Assembly: GCF_010977555.1 (NCBI RefSeq)
Contig: NZ_CP048815.1
Span: 2,658,501-2,722,500 of the forward strand
Direction of reading: 5' to 3'
DNA: 64,000 bases
Source: Caulobacter rhizosphaerae
Lineage (GTDB): Bacteria > Pseudomonadota > Alphaproteobacteria > Caulobacterales > Caulobacteraceae
This document shows positions 693 through 4,815 of the stretch, piece after piece. The position numbers and the translations under genes are program-made. The notes under the pieces are model-generated. The model was given only the letters and a program-made list of their open reading frames with translations. It made no database searches and was not told where the DNA came from. Position 1 is the first letter of the stretch. Each line of letters opens with the position of its first letter.

Positions 693-1991
693 CTAGACCA
701 GCTTCTTGATCGGCTGGCTGGCCAGATAGGCGCCCGGATTGGCCGGGTCGAACACCTTGCCGTCGAAGAACCGCTCGACGCCCCGGCTGTCGCCGGCCGG
801 CCCGGCCTGGCCGATGCTCTTGGCCGCCGCGCGCCAGATATCCGAGCGGTTGACCTTGGTGACCAGCGCCTGGGTGTTGGTCTTCTGCGGCAGCACGCCC
901 CAGCGGATGTCCTCGGTCAGGAACCACAGGTCGTGCGACTTGAACGGGAAGCTGGCGTTGTCGGCCCAGAACTTCATGCGGTGCGGCGAATTCTTCAGCG
1001 TGCGGCCGTCGCCATAATCCACCGTGCCCTGCAGGCGGGGCAGGATGTCGCCCATCGGCACGTTGACGTACTGGCGGCCCGAGACGATCGAGCACATGGC
1101 CGGCAGGTTCGCGGCCTTGTCGCACCACAGCTGCGCTTCCTGCACGGCGGCCGTGATCGCCTGCGCGGCGCGGGGGTACTTGTCCACCCAGGCGGCGCGC
1201 ATGCCCAGAGCCTTCTCGGGGTGGTTCATCCACAGTTCCGAGGTCAGGCAGGCGGTATAGCCGACCCGCTGGTTGACCAGCTGGCCGTTCCACGGCTCGC
1301 CCACGCAGAACGCATCCTGGGTGCCGGCCTTCATGTTGGCCACCATCTGGGGCGGCGGGATGACGATGGTGGCGACGTCGGTCTCGGGATTGATGCCGCC
1401 GGCCGCCAGCCAATAGCGCACCCACAGGTCGTGGGTGCCGCCCCGGAAGGTCATCGCCACCTTGGCGATGTTGCCGGCGGCCTTCATCTGCAGGAACTTG
1501 GCCTTGGCGCCGCCGCTGTTGAGCCCGACCTTGACCGCCTTCAGGTCGTTGCCGACCGAGATGCCTTGGCCGTTGGTGTTGAGGCGAGCCAGGATGTACA
1601 TCGGCGTCGGCGCGCCGCCGGTGATCGCGCCCGTGGTCATCAGATAAGGCATGGGCGAGAGGATATGGGCGCCGTCGATGCCGCCGCGCTCGGAGCCCAG
1701 CACCAGGTTGTCGCGGGTGGCGGCCCAGGAGGCCTGCTTGACCACCTCGATGTCGGGCAGGCCGTACTTGGCGAACAGCCCGCGCTCCTTGGCGATGATC
1801 ACCGGCGCGGAGTCGGTCAGGGCGATGAAGCCCAGGCGGGCCTTGGCCACTTCGGGTCCGGCGCCGGCCGCATGGGCGCCGGCCGGGAACAGCGCCTTGG
1901 CGGCGGCGACGGTGGCGGCCGCGCCCACCAGGGCGTGGCGGCGGGTCAGGCCTGTGTCTGGCTTGGCGGCGGTCTTGTCGGTCTTGGTCAT
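693..1991 (-). CDS. nrtA: NrtA/CmpA-family nitrate ABC transporter substrate-binding protein
   Basis: Periplasmic binding protein of 432 residues that would deliver nitrate or nitrite to the NtrB permease encoded next. The N-terminus has a twin-arginine export signal (TRRHALVG, then an alanine-rich hydrophobic stretch ending near GAHAA), so Tat export is likely. The mature part opens with ARLGFIALTDSAPVIIAKE, typical of the NrtA/CmpA branch, and has the long two-lobed body expected at this length. The gene lies 21 bases after the porin gene and 13 before ntrB, giving a porin - binding protein - permease order. Bicarbonate (CmpA) is the alternative ligand. The nitrate call is supported by the leader with ANTAR-type hairpins and an NtrC-like site upstream of the operon. 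Confidence 0.92.
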   Translation of the reverse strand: MTKTDKTAAKPDTGLTRRHALVGAAATVAAAKALFPAGAHAAGAGPEVAKARLGFIALTDSAPVIIAKERGLFAKYGLPDIEVVKQASWAATRDNLVLGSERGGIDGAHILSPMPYLMTTGAITGGAPTPMYILARLNTNGQGISVGNDLKAVKVGLNSGGAKAKFLQMKAAGNIAKVAMTFRGGTHDLWVRYWLAAGGINPETDVATIVIPPPQMVANMKAGTQDAFCVGEPWNGQLVNQRVGYTACLTSELWMNHPEKALGMRAAWVDKYPRAAQAITAAVQEAQLWCDKAANLPAMCSIVSGRQYVNVPMGDILPRLQGTVDYGDGRTLKNSPHRMKFWADNASFPFKSHDLWFLTEDIRWGVLPQKTNTQALVTKVNRSDIWRAAAKSIGQAGPAGDSRGVERFFDGKVFDPANPGAYLASQPIKKLV

Positions 1992-2012: not shown

Positions 2013-3383
2013 TCAGAGTTTGTATTCGAGGGTGAACCAGGCCTTGGTCCGCGACGCCGGCGGCGTCGCCGTGCCCGCGGGCACGGTCGCTTCGCGCTGG
2101 AAGTCGGCGTACTTCAGCTGGATCGAGAGCTTGGGCGTGATGGCGGCGGCGAAGGCGACGTCCCACTCGTGACCGAGGTCGGCGCCGGTCCGCTGGTCGT
2201 TGAAGTCGTGGTAGCGGACCTGGATGTCGGTGTTGAAGAAGTAGGTCCGCTTGAACCGAGGCTTGGCGTTGAAGCTGAGGTTGGCGTCCTCGATGCCGTC
2301 GACGAAGCTCTTGTTGCCGCCCGGCGAAACGAAGGCGTCGGACCAGCCCTGGAAGGCGTGGACGGTGGCCAGGGGCGTTGTGAACCCGCGCGTCCCGTCG
2401 CCTTCCAGCGACTCGTAGCTGGCCTTGACGGTGTAGATGTCGAACGTGCCGGAGACATCGCCGCCGAAATAGGCGAGGTCGAAGTTCGGCGTATTGTGGT
2501 GGTAGTCCGACTGCTTGGCGTAGGTGGCGTTGTAGGCCAGCTGGTAGAGGCCGACCCAGGTCTTACCCGACGCCTTGACGCCCTTGGTCAGAGACGAGTT
2601 GACCGCCGAATTGCCGAAGTCCAGGGCATAGACGAAGCCTTGCAGACGCAGGGCCTCGGCCGGCGACCAGGTGGCGTTGAGCAGGTGGCTGTCGCTGTCC
2701 CAGTCGCGCAGTTCGCCCAGGATGCGGTTGACGTGCGAGATGTAGGCATAGGTCGCCTTGAATCGACCGTAGGCGACGTCGGTGCGGATGGCGTCGAAGG
2801 TCTGCTCGTCCTGGCGCCAGCCCACATTGCCGACGAAGCGCTGATCGTCGAGCAGGATGCGCTGGCGGCCGGCGACCACCTGCAGGGCGGCGCTGGGCGT
2901 CCAGGTCAGCTGGGCGCGGTTGAGTTCGGTCACGTCCGGGTCGTTGACGACGGGATAGCGCGCCTTGTCGGCGCCGTTCAGGGGGGCGGTGGTCGCACCC
3001 GGGACGTTGACGGCGTAGTGCTCGGGACCGGCCTGGCGGACGTCCTCGAACTCGATCAGGCCCTTCACGCCGTGGAACTCGGCGGTCTCCCAGCCCAGGC
3101 GGGTGCGGATGGTGAAGGCCGAGGCGTCATCCTTGAGGGTGGCGGTCTTGGTCTGGTCGACGCTTTCGTAGCGGGCGCGGACTTCCAGGATCAGTTTCCC
3201 GGCGGCGACCTGGTCGCTGAAGGTCGGCGGCGGCGGCGCGGGGGGCGGCGGTTCGGTGGCTTCGGCCGGCTGTTCGCCGGTGGTCGCCACCGGTTCCGGC
3301 GCCGATTGAGCATGGGCTGCGCCACCCAGAATCAAGGCGCAGAAAGTCGTGCTGCAAAGCAGCATTTTTCGTAGGCTTGGCAT
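2013..3383 (-). CDS. Outer-membrane porin, alginate-export-like beta-barrel
   Basis: Probable outer-membrane channel of 456 residues. There is a Sec signal peptide (LLCSTTFCALILGGAAHAQ), a proline/alanine linker of about 30 residues, then alternating polar/hydrophobic beta strands starting at ILEVRARYESVDQ and ending in FTLEYKL, with an aromatic close to the C-terminus as in barrel proteins. The pattern resembles the alginate-export/AlgE-type domain. As first gene of the nitrate operon it probably helps anions cross the outer membrane; this role is inferred from position only. Start chosen: ATG at 3383 with the G-run ribosome site at 3391-3395, directly after the leader terminator at 3404-3490. 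Confidence 0.82.
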   Translation of the reverse strand: MPSLRKMLLCSTTFCALILGGAAHAQSAPEPVATTGEQPAEATEPPPPAPPPPTFSDQVAAGKLILEVRARYESVDQTKTATLKDDASAFTIRTRLGWETAEFHGVKGLIEFEDVRQAGPEHYAVNVPGATTAPLNGADKARYPVVNDPDVTELNRAQLTWTPSAALQVVAGRQRILLDDQRFVGNVGWRQDEQTFDAIRTDVAYGRFKATYAYISHVNRILGELRDWDSDSHLLNATWSPAEALRLQGFVYALDFGNSAVNSSLTKGVKASGKTWVGLYQLAYNATYAKQSDYHHNTPNFDLAYFGGDVSGTFDIYTVKASYESLEGDGTRGFTTPLATVHAFQGWSDAFVSPGGNKSFVDGIEDANLSFNAKPRFKRTYFFNTDIQVRYHDFNDQRTGADLGHEWDVAFAAAITPKLSIQLKYADFQREATVPAGTATPPASRTKAWFTLEYKL

Positions 3384-3403
3384 GGTCTATCCCCCAGAAG
3401 GCC

Positions 3404-3490
3404 AAAAAAAACGCCCGGCGCGACCGCTTCAGCGATCACTCCGGACGTCGTTGTCCAAACGGTACCAAGCGGCTGCATCGCCGCCGGGCG
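3404..3490 (-). terminator. Leader (attenuator) terminator of the nitrate operon
   Basis: On the minus strand a perfect 9-bp stem CGCCCGGCG (3490-3482) / CGCCGGGCG (3420-3412) runs straight into eight U residues (3411-3404). It is reinforced by an inner CCGCTT/AAGCGG pairing. The U-run ends only 20 bases before the porin start codon, so this is a terminator inside the leader, in front of the first gene, not at the end of a gene. A second small hairpin lies in its loop. This arrangement implies regulated read-through. Confidence 0.85.
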
Positions 3491-3524
3491 GCCCTCTCAG
3501 GCCTTAGCGGAACGTCGTTGTCCC
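3404..3524 (-). promoter_or_regulatory. ANTAR-type (NasT/NasR) antitermination leader with two AACGAC hexaloop hairpins
   Basis: Read on the minus strand, the leader holds hairpin 1, GGGAC-AACGAC-GTTCC (3524-3509), and hairpin 2, GGAC-AACGAC-GTCC (3456-3443), with identical six-base loops. The 5' strand of the terminator lies between them and the U-run follows. ANTAR-domain proteins such as NasR, NasT and EutV bind paired hairpins whose hexaloops have A at position 1 and G at position 4; both loops fit exactly. I infer that a NasT-like protein binds the pair and blocks the terminator when nitrate or nitrite is present. No ANTAR gene is in this window. Confidence 0.75.
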
Positions 3525-3613
3525 GCGTGTTGAGACTAGGAGGGAGCCGACCGGCCGGCGCGGCAATCCGAAAACTGCACCATGTCGCATCGCAGCATGA
3601 AAACGGGGTGATT

Positions 3614-3702: not shown

Positions 3703-4815
3703 CTAGTCCTTGGGCTGAAACGGCGCCCAGGCTTCGACCAACACGCCGGGAAAGGCGCTGGTCAGGGAGATGTGACCGTTCACGAATTCCAGCCGCAAGC
3801 GCATGCCCGCCAGGCCGACGCCCGACGTCGCCGAAGCACCGTCCGGCAGACCCACCCCGTAGTCGCGGATCGACAACAGCACCATTTCGCCGGCCAGCCG
3901 CAGACCGATCGCGGCGCGCGGGCTGCCGGAGTGGCGATGCACATTGGCCAGGGCCTCCTGAGCGACGCGATACAGCGCCACCTCGGTCCGGCGGGCCATC
4001 TTCGGAAAGTCGTCGGCGATATCGATCTGCAGCGATAGTCCCGTGCGCCGCGCGAAGCCTTCCGCCATCTGCCGAATGGCGGGGCCCAGGCCCGTCTCCT
4101 CCAGAGCCGGAGGGTGCATGACGTAGGAAAGGCTGCGGATCTCTTCCAAGGCGTTGACCAGCAGGGCCTCGATCTCGACGCGAACCTTTTCCGCGCGGCC
4201 TTCGACCTTCATGGCGCCCAGCATCAGCTTGGCGCCGGTGAGGTACTGGGCGGTTCCGTCGTGAAGCTCGCGCGCGATGCGCCGGCGCTCGTCGTCCTCG
4301 GCATGGAGCAGCGCGGCGGTGGCGCGTCCAAGGGCCGCCTGGGCATGGCGCTGAACGGTGATGTCCTCCTGGGCCACGATCACCAGGGTTCGGCCGTTGC
4401 TGGAGATGCGCGTGGCGATCATCCTGGCCCACAGCGGACCGCTGGCTAGGTCCATCTGGTATTCATGGCGAAAAGGCCCGGCCTCGCCCGCCAGCAGGCC
4501 TCGGAGGCCGGCGGCCGCTTCGGACGTCTCGGACCCGCCCAGGCTGTCGCAGAAGGCGATGTAGTTCAGGCCCAGCCCATGGTTTTCCAGCGGCGGCGCG
4601 TTGAACGCGGCGAACTGCGCCCAGGCGTCGTTCACCGCGACGATCTCACCCTCGGCGTTCAGGATCGCCACGTTCGCCGTGACGGTGTCGAGAATGACTT
4701 CGTACAAACCGGAGGCGGACCCTTCGCTCATCTCGTGAGCCGTGTGCATTTCCGTAGTGAGCCTTATGTTCTGTAGGTCATGACGCGCGGTCAGCGGCGT
4801 GACGAGGCCGCGCAT
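3703..4815 (-). CDS. Cytosolic PAS-HisKA_3 sensor histidine kinase (NarX/DesK-type)
   Basis: Two-component sensor kinase of 370 residues without membrane segments. A PAS-like domain occupies about residues 35-155 (VTANVAILNAEGEIVAVNDAW ends in IVAQEDITVQRH). It is followed by a HisKA_3 dimerisation helix with the phospho-accepting His in RRRIARELHDGTAQ (about residue 184) and an HATPase_c domain with N-box (RVAQEALANVHRHS) and G-boxes (DYGVGLPDG; GVGLAGMRLR). Kinases of this type usually pair with NarL/FixJ regulators, but none is adjacent. The ATG at 4815 has a GAGGGTG ribosome site; ATG codons at 4749 and 4731 are alternatives. It lies just upstream of the nitrate operon on the same strand, so a nitrogen or redox signal is a reasonable guess, not shown. 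Confidence 0.85.
   Translation of the reverse strand: MRGLVTPLTARHDLQNIRLTTEMHTAHEMSEGSASGLYEVILDTVTANVAILNAEGEIVAVNDAWAQFAAFNAPPLENHGLGLNYIAFCDSLGGSETSEAAAGLRGLLAGEAGPFRHEYQMDLASGPLWARMIATRISSNGRTLVIVAQEDITVQRHAQAALGRATAALLHAEDDERRRIARELHDGTAQYLTGAKLMLGAMKVEGRAEKVRVEIEALLVNALEEIRSLSYVMHPPALEETGLGPAIRQMAEGFARRTGLSLQIDIADDFPKMARRTEVALYRVAQEALANVHRHSGSPRAAIGLRLAGEMVLLSIRDYGVGLPDGASATSGVGLAGMRLRLEFVNGHISLTSAFPGVLVEAWAPFQPKD

Follow-up and report, generated by a model that had tools for sequence, protein, structure and literature searches.

The closest described relatives of the leader analysed here are the dual-hexaloop antiterminators of eutP/G/S/A (EutV), nasF (NasR) and amiE (AmiR). According to the available text of PMC3369931, PMC3369936 and PMC8934654, these share with it 6-nt loops with A1 and G4 in both hairpins (P1 and P2), a 3' arm of P2 that lies in the 5' arm of the terminator, an ANTAR protein in the genome and nitrogen genes downstream. 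In the eut leaders the linker measures 5-12 nt, lengthening it to 14 nt is enough to reduce induction, and the loops of eutP are spaced by 24 nt, from A29 to A53 (PMC3369931). Lengthening the linker of an EutV leader by 20 nt abolished antitermination (PMC8934654, available text), and linkers of 2-25 nt are given for a curated actinobacterial ANTAR set in the accessible part of PMC8164766. Whether a dimeric ANTAR protein binds its two hexaloops simultaneously or successively is left unsettled in the accessible parts of PMC3369936 and PMC8934654; the latter puts forward a successive-binding model for EutV and describes, in those parts, a crystal structure with a contact to G4 and none to A1. 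In Paracoccus, nitrate releases NasT from NasS, as stated in the portion available of PMC3795266.

In the 64,000-nucleotide stretch of DNA analysed (the window), the minus-strand RNA 3526-3404 forms a leader in front of a porin gene. We consider it very probable that this leader is a NasT-responsive transcription attenuator and that it belongs with a three-hexaloop form of the ANTAR leader, composed of P1, a middle hairpin (Pm) and P2. Its elements and the first genes downstream are:

3507 to 3526, minus strand: P1 hairpin, 7 bp, hexaloop AACGAC (loop 3519-3514); closing-pair probability 0.997, covarying in 16 relatives
3490 to 3503, minus strand: Lk1, spacer hairpin GGCCU-GAGA-GGGCC in the gap between P1 and P2; pair probability 0.95-1.0
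3482 to 3490, minus strand: 5' arm of a 9-bp stem proposed in an earlier note, partner 3420-3412; not conserved and probably incidental
3469 to 3484, minus strand: Pm, middle hairpin, hexaloop GAUGCA (3479-3474); pair probability 1.0
3440 to 3459, minus strand: P2, antiterminator hairpin, 7 bp, hexaloop AACGAC (3452-3447); excludes the terminator
3410 to 3449, minus strand: intrinsic terminator hairpin, its 5' arm being the 3' half of P2; -28.9 kcal/mol, with covariation
3404 to 3411, minus strand: U8 tract of the terminator, eight T in the sequence
2013 to 3383, minus strand: first gene, outer-membrane porin of 456 aa (open reading frame, Pfam Alginate_exp)
693 to 1991, minus strand: nrtA-type substrate-binding protein (open reading frame, Pfam NMT1_2)

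The earlier note, made from the letters of this DNA, had pointed to two hairpins with the identical hexaloop AACGAC and to eight U placed 20 bases before the first gene, and both observations stand (P1 at 3526-3507 and P2 at 3459-3440 of the minus strand; T 3411-3404, with the porin ATG at 3383). In line with the dual-hairpin definition of PMC3369931, which allows a variable linker and asks for stems of at least 3 bp, each hairpin has a hexaloop with A1 and G4 on a stem of 7 bp, and the 12-nt core common to the two is the sole direct repeat listed in 3384-3560. Throughout the 64 kb, pairs of A1/G4 hexaloop hairpins (stems of at least 6 bp, lying within 120 nt of each other) number two on the minus strand and none on the plus strand, P1/P2 being the only such pair with identical loops. 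A chance pairing of two hexaloops is ruled out by this uniqueness together with the shuffle counts in relatives given below. Folding of the minus-strand RNA, a check proposed with the original claim, favoured P1 combined with the terminator whose arm is drawn from P2; the 177-nt leader RNA gave a fold z of -2.85, with 2 of 200 shuffles folding equally well. P1 is probably the first structure of the leader transcript, whose start would lie just upstream of it; a scan for sigma-70 promoters returned no match for the leader.

About 90 nt upstream of P1, the minus strand carries TGCACC-GCTGC-TGTGCA (3630-3614), which by eye is weaker in other Caulobacter. It resembles TGCACC-N5-GGTGCA, which we take to be the NtrC site.

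P2 and the terminator are mutually exclusive, as described for ANTAR leaders in the available text of PMC3369931 and PMC3369936. An RNA ending just after P2 folds into P1, Lk1, Pm and P2 (-44.3), the full leader into P1, Lk1, Pm and the terminator (-71.5), and forcing P1 and P2 together in the full leader costs ~10 kcal/mol. The closing pair of P2 thus has a probability of 8e-7 in the full leader, yet P2 forms in the nascent RNA. The overlap of P2 with an intrinsic terminator in the right orientation, as laid down in PMC3369931, was missed by a simple terminator scan, which admits loops of 3-8 bases; it did not list the leader terminator and its single site lies elsewhere.

The earlier note had drawn this part of the leader differently, with P2 inside the loop of a terminator, not in its 5' arm, and with a perfect 9-bp stem running into the eight U. 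The inverted repeat does exist (3490-3482/3420-3412) and ends at the U tract, and the fold uses it, before that same tract, when P2 is held closed. As a terminator it was rejected: its pair probability is 0.00, against 0.87-1.00 for the P2-arm terminator (3449-3410). In 16 Caulobacter/Phenylobacterium-type leaders, P1 and the P2-arm terminator together reach 95.4% paired cells with 9 doubly changed pairs, values attained by 0 of 500 shuffles (slid versions give 40-54%), whereas the 9-bp stem is 75.0% paired in these relatives, a level that 293 of 500 column shuffles reach. Because the P2-arm stem is both probable and covarying and the 9-bp stem is neither, P2 has to be placed in the 5' arm (3449-3410), and we regard the layout with P2 in the terminator loop as extremely improbable. 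The leaders of Asticcacaulis give independent covariation support. The 9-bp stem that the fold uses when P2 is closed could weaken read-through in this strain.

Downstream of the leader lies an operon of the porin-nrtABC type, whose content fits nitrate uptake: behind nrtA come a nitrate ABC permease (TIGR01183) and an ATPase (TIGR01184), which extend past the window start. The earlier note had made its ANTAR reading depend on the presence of an ANTAR gene in the genome. The search yielded one detected ANTAR match, at C1:2429850, which scores 74.5 bits at genome level and 72.3 bits when the protein itself is searched and lies ~232 kb from the leader; an ANTAR protein is thus encoded in the same genome as its candidate target, as in PMC3369931. 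This protein of 209 aa is followed by a 379-aa NMT1_2 protein (NasS-like), a NarK-type transporter and NirB. Pfam finds in it the ANTAR domain alone; NCBIfam adds a weak receiver-type match, to the KdpE model (26 bits, the cut-off being 325), such as a pseudo-receiver might give. It aligns to PDB entries 1s8n (putative antiterminator), 6wsh (Response regulator), 4akk (nitrate regulatory protein) and 1qo0 (AmiR). We take 6wsh to be EutV; the residue numbering fits with an offset of 2. In the 6wsh alignment, the EutV RNA-binding residues R142, K143, Y164 and M172 named in the available text of PMC8934654 are kept, and K147 is replaced by R. We read the ANTAR protein of this genome as a NasT encoded beside a NasS, and the features of a NasT regulon are found here: a NasS-like partner and a target in nitrate transport, its control by NasT being putative.

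The same genome contains a second, very conserved leader before narK (L003:9430-9553), ~231 kb from the window leader and aligned across 9 genomes of the genus (alignment A3). It has an invariant AACGGC hexaloop hairpin, a hairpin with the loop UCGGAU in 8 of the 9, and in 5 of the 9 (the own genome being without it) a third hairpin with the loop GAYGAC; there is no U tract. This leader may be a NasT target acting without an intrinsic terminator. The pattern TTGCTGNGCAA occurs before narK and has a similar counterpart before the porin; it was discarded, as it is not enriched (10 sites against 14 in the reversed control).

A quite different explanation would see here a constitutive terminator belonging to the kinase gene upstream, or else a riboswitch or leader-peptide attenuator in which the hexaloops arose by chance. 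A kinase gene does end upstream on the same strand, but no Rfam family scores above its gathering threshold anywhere in the window, the P1/P2 pair is unique in 64 kb, and in 41 genomes the same porin gene has hexaloops and a terminator in front of it; we therefore judge this explanation very unlikely. The gene concerned (3703-4815, minus strand) encodes a HisKA_3 histidine kinase, with family matches in its kinase half only, and lies directly upstream of the leader; the next gene further upstream encodes a peptidase M15 and not a receiver.

The recurrence was established by a search of 149 genomes of the family with the porin protein, which gave 80 matches in 58 genomes, the upstream DNA being read for 70 of the 80. 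A leader (P2 and terminator) precedes the porin in 41 genomes and the other 29 of the 70 loci are without one; the 41 were called by reading, and an automatic parse took 39 of them (L025 and L055 fall below its stem limits). In the P1 slot, 23 of 25 non-redundant Caulobacter/Phenylobacterium-type leaders have an A1/G4 hexaloop. ANTAR genes occur in 53 of the 149 genomes, namely 39 of the 41 that bear the leader and 14 of the 108 others (Fisher p 1.3e-21, a value that ignores kinship and leaves leaders before other genes uncounted). The two leader-bearing genomes with no ANTAR match (G018 with L021, G104 with L042) are drafts of about 100 and 370 contigs, and may reflect an assembly gap or a lost regulator. 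Together, the NasT/NasS pair and the co-occurrence of leader and ANTAR gene in the family support the claim of an ANTAR (NasT-type) leader before a nitrate operon.

Searched with a leader model of Caulobacter type, 51 of the 149 genomes give matches at E <=0.1, many of the weak ones being doubtful; in the own genome, model R1 finds the window leader and 6 further matches at E 0.57-8.7, which we take for chance. Six genomes of the genus (L034-L039) have a second porin copy just upstream of the leader-bearing one, without such a leader; these tandem copies belong to the 29 loci that lack it. Three genomes (G019, G050, G008) have two strong leader matches each and may have NasT regulons with more than one attenuated operon.

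The gap between P1 and P2 sets this leader apart. The spacing of roughly 50 bases that the earlier note had found unusual is real (about 47 nt), but it is no bare linker: the gap is structured, filled by Lk1 and Pm. It exceeds the linker ranges in the accessible parts of PMC8164766 and PMC3369931, the gap between Pm and P2 being 9 nt; by analogy with EutV, whose leaders should no longer work with 47 nt between P1 and P2, the gap to this extent counts against the ANTAR-switch model. The Pm loop lies 27 nt upstream of the P2 loop, with those 9 nt of single strand between the hairpins, and so occupies the slot of the partner hexaloop in two-hairpin leaders; in its loop, GAUGCA, G4 is kept and A1 is replaced by G. 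Lk1-like hairpins are present in many Caulobacter/Phenylobacterium leaders. The linker measures 34-54 nt in 34 of the 39 parsed leaders; L022 has 22 nt, and values of 8-12 nt were obtained for L029, L041, L049 and L054, where the script took an A1/G4 hairpin 26-29 nt from P2 as P1. A search restricted to hairpin pairs separated by a linker of 2-25 nt could overlook leaders of the window type.

MAFFT aligned the linker helices poorly across genera, and Pm was therefore judged by position and loop. From 59 non-redundant scan hits, 53 were grouped, those dropped as doubtful being L127 (twice), L137, L145 (twice) and L182. Within the 25 Caulobacter/Phenylobacterium-type leaders, a set with a few members from other genera of the family and with close relatives remaining (such as L013-L015), so that not all counts are independent, an A1/G4 loop occupies the Pm slot in 2, a number reached by 29 of 300 shuffles, and a purine-1/G4 loop in 14 (shuffle mean 1.5, maximum 5). 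One of the two A1/G4 cases, L113, is a P1 moved next to P2.

One reading of these counts, to which we lean slightly, is that Pm and Lk1 are mere spacer helices that bring P1 and P2, the sole NasT sites, closer together and let the long linker act as a short one. The position and pairing of Pm are kept while its loop varies: A1 and G4 appear in 2 of the 20 best Pm-slot hexaloop hairpins, chosen blind to the loop (one of the 2 being L113), 5 of the 25 leaders have no hexaloop hairpin in the slot, and in several relatives a loop of four, five or seven bases stands at this place. L113, moreover, is without the insert and has its P1-type hairpin at -26, next to P2. The variation is nevertheless not free, as G4 is found in 16 of the same 20 loops and GAYG in 10 despite changing stems (some of these leaders being close relatives). 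GAYG or G1 loops also occur in P2 (L018, L122, L257) and in P1 (L024), and the EutV contact to G4 and not to A1, as given in the accessible part of PMC8934654, likewise speaks against a purely spacing role.

In L113 (4390-4477, from a Phenylobacterium MAG) the P1-P2 interval is absent and -26 is the usual spacing; this locus is a natural deletion test of the spacer.

Leaders of Asticcacaulis present the fuller form. In 13 non-redundant leaders, A1 is found in P1 in 13 of 13, in Pm in 12 of 13 and in P2 in 12 of 13, and G4 in 39 of 39 loops, positions 3, 5 and 6 being the most variable. The stems covary, that of Pm included, where 3 of 4 pairs are doubly changed. Counting only stems of 4 bp or more, 10 of 13 leaders have an A1/G4 hexaloop in the Pm slot, against a mean of 0.18 and a maximum of 2 over 300 shuffles, and 12 of 13 have one in the P1 slot (shuffle mean 0.51, maximum 4). 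The corresponding figures for three Microvirga leaders are 2 of 3 in the Pm slot and 3 of 3 in the P1 slot, and for the Methylobacterium-type group 8 of 12 and 0 of 12. A model built from Asticcacaulis only finds the window leader at E 8.8e-10 in a direct search of the window, and the two leader forms therefore make up one family. Three tandem A1/G4 hexaloops, the proposed mark of a triple, are present in Asticcacaulis and not in the window, where Pm is G1/G4.

Two models, both built from the 13 non-redundant Asticcacaulis leaders only, were searched against 385 genomes of the class. R2 matched 25 of the 385 at E <=0.05; 15 of the 25 matches were inspected, and two of them (L239, L245) are not leaders. 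Among the R2 matches, the families f39, f42 and f106 have triples that are arguable by eye, in which a loop has G1 or is closed by a U-G pair, and in L237 two hexaloops lie 81 nt apart. Because the inclusion of P1 and Pm biases R2 towards triples, R3 was made without P1. It gave 11 matches, and 9 leaders, all also recovered by R2, were tested after L260 and L261 had been judged non-leaders and removed before the count. When stems must have 4 bp or more, 6 of the 9 show an extra upstream A1/G4 hexaloop, against a shuffle mean of 0.46 and no shuffle out of 500 attaining 6; with the limit lowered to 3 bp, 8 of the 9 do (mean 1.24, again none of 500). One of these 8, L252 (offset -84), is not called a third site. 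The own genome (G000) is among the 385 and has no R2 or R3 match under the strict filters, although R2 does recover the window leader in the direct search of the window. The three-hexaloop form thus occurs in the window leader's own family and in at least five others of the class: third-hexaloop leaders come from five families (f11, f41, f44, f67 and f94; f41 and f67 twice), while two leaders of f37 have two hexaloops only; in triples, neighbouring loops are 20-37 nt apart. Judged from predicted hairpins and loops, leaders in several families thus carry three tandem hexaloops.

A sigma-54-like promoter, a pattern of the TGGCACG-N4-TTGC type, lies upstream of the first hexaloop in L228-L231, L233, L235, L237, L238 and L242 (in L231 by eye), and likewise in the eight Methylobacterium/Methylorubrum nrtA leaders L126, L130, L135, L142, L146, L148, L150 and L181. 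In the former leaders, P1 would then be the first structure of the transcript. The pattern had no match in L227, L232, L234, L236 and three Microvirga loci.

These triples bear on the second reading of Pm, a working third NasT site in a three-step relay from P1 through Pm to P2, to which we give somewhat less than an even chance. Full A1/G4 triples in Asticcacaulis and several other families argue for it, as do a loop spacing close to the 24 nt of eutP in the available text of PMC3369931 and the successive-binding model for EutV in that of PMC8934654. On the other hand, the Caulobacter middle loop is without A1, and two hexaloops appear to be enough in the Methylobacterium-type loci and in the two f37 leaders. 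We also put forward, tentatively and as falling a little short of probable, the broader picture that a large share of alphaproteobacterial NasT leaders are triple, with an additional hexaloop that is transcribed first and stands ahead of the known pair, that NasT is handed from P1 to Pm to P2, and that the window leader is a derived triple with a GAYG middle. Roughly evenly spaced triples, leaders with a degenerate middle and one natural deletion to two hexaloops form a series on which to decide between the binding models.

For the NasT-responsive attenuator that we favour, sequence and computation establish the hairpins, the exclusion of P2 by the terminator and vice versa, the covariation, the NasT and NasS genes, their co-occurrence with the leader and the triple pattern in relatives, while NasT binding to the hairpins, the response to nitrate and the order of loading are what we infer. 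Mechanistically, termination would be the default. Without nitrate, NasS would hold NasT; P1, Lk1 and Pm would fold, and the 3' half of P2 would pair with the stretch preceding the U tract to form the terminator, stopping transcription before porin-nrtABC. Nitrate would free NasT, which would load on the upstream hexaloops as these emerge and hold P2 closed; the terminator would thereby be deprived of its 5' arm and the polymerase would read through. The successive-binding model of EutV, as set out in the accessible part of PMC8934654, suggests that an earlier hexaloop recruits the protein, and a third hexaloop would leave more time for this to happen.

The switch itself is thus of a known kind, while the three-hexaloop form and the structured gap are apparently new: neither was found in the open-access literature searched. 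The nearest precedent for multiplicity, Desulfotomaculum acetoxidans, has several complete ANTAR elements per transcription unit (13 in six units, PMC3369931); this is a repetition of entire elements and differs from the addition of a third hexaloop ahead of a single terminator. The nasA leader of Paracoccus denitrificans shares with ours the NasS-NasT pair, the nitrate genes and widely spaced leader hairpins (PMC3795266 and PMC5424462, available text); its hairpins HI and HII lie 137 and 91 bp upstream of nasA, and mutation of HII left expression relatively unaffected, as reported in the portion available of PMC5424462. There nasTS adjoins its target, whereas here it is 232 kb away, and in other Caulobacteraceae, among them G128, G141 and G121, the distance is ~1.6 kb. 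In the Bradyrhizobium nosR leader, NasT interferes with a leader terminator, as proposed here, although the target genes differ (PMC6759348, available text).

The eight nrtA leaders of Methylobacterium/Methylorubrum share with the window leader a P2 that overlaps the terminator, and their partner hexaloop lies 25-29 nt upstream of P2, a range that includes the 27 nt of Pm. Unlike the window leader, Methylobacterium-type nrtA leaders have no A1/G4 hexaloop in the P1 slot and have a sigma-54-like promoter upstream. Compared with the dual-hexaloop antiterminators as a whole, the present leader differs by its gap of about 47 nt with two helices, by a Pm that sits in the usual slot of the partner hairpin, and by relatives that have a full third A1/G4 hexaloop in that slot.
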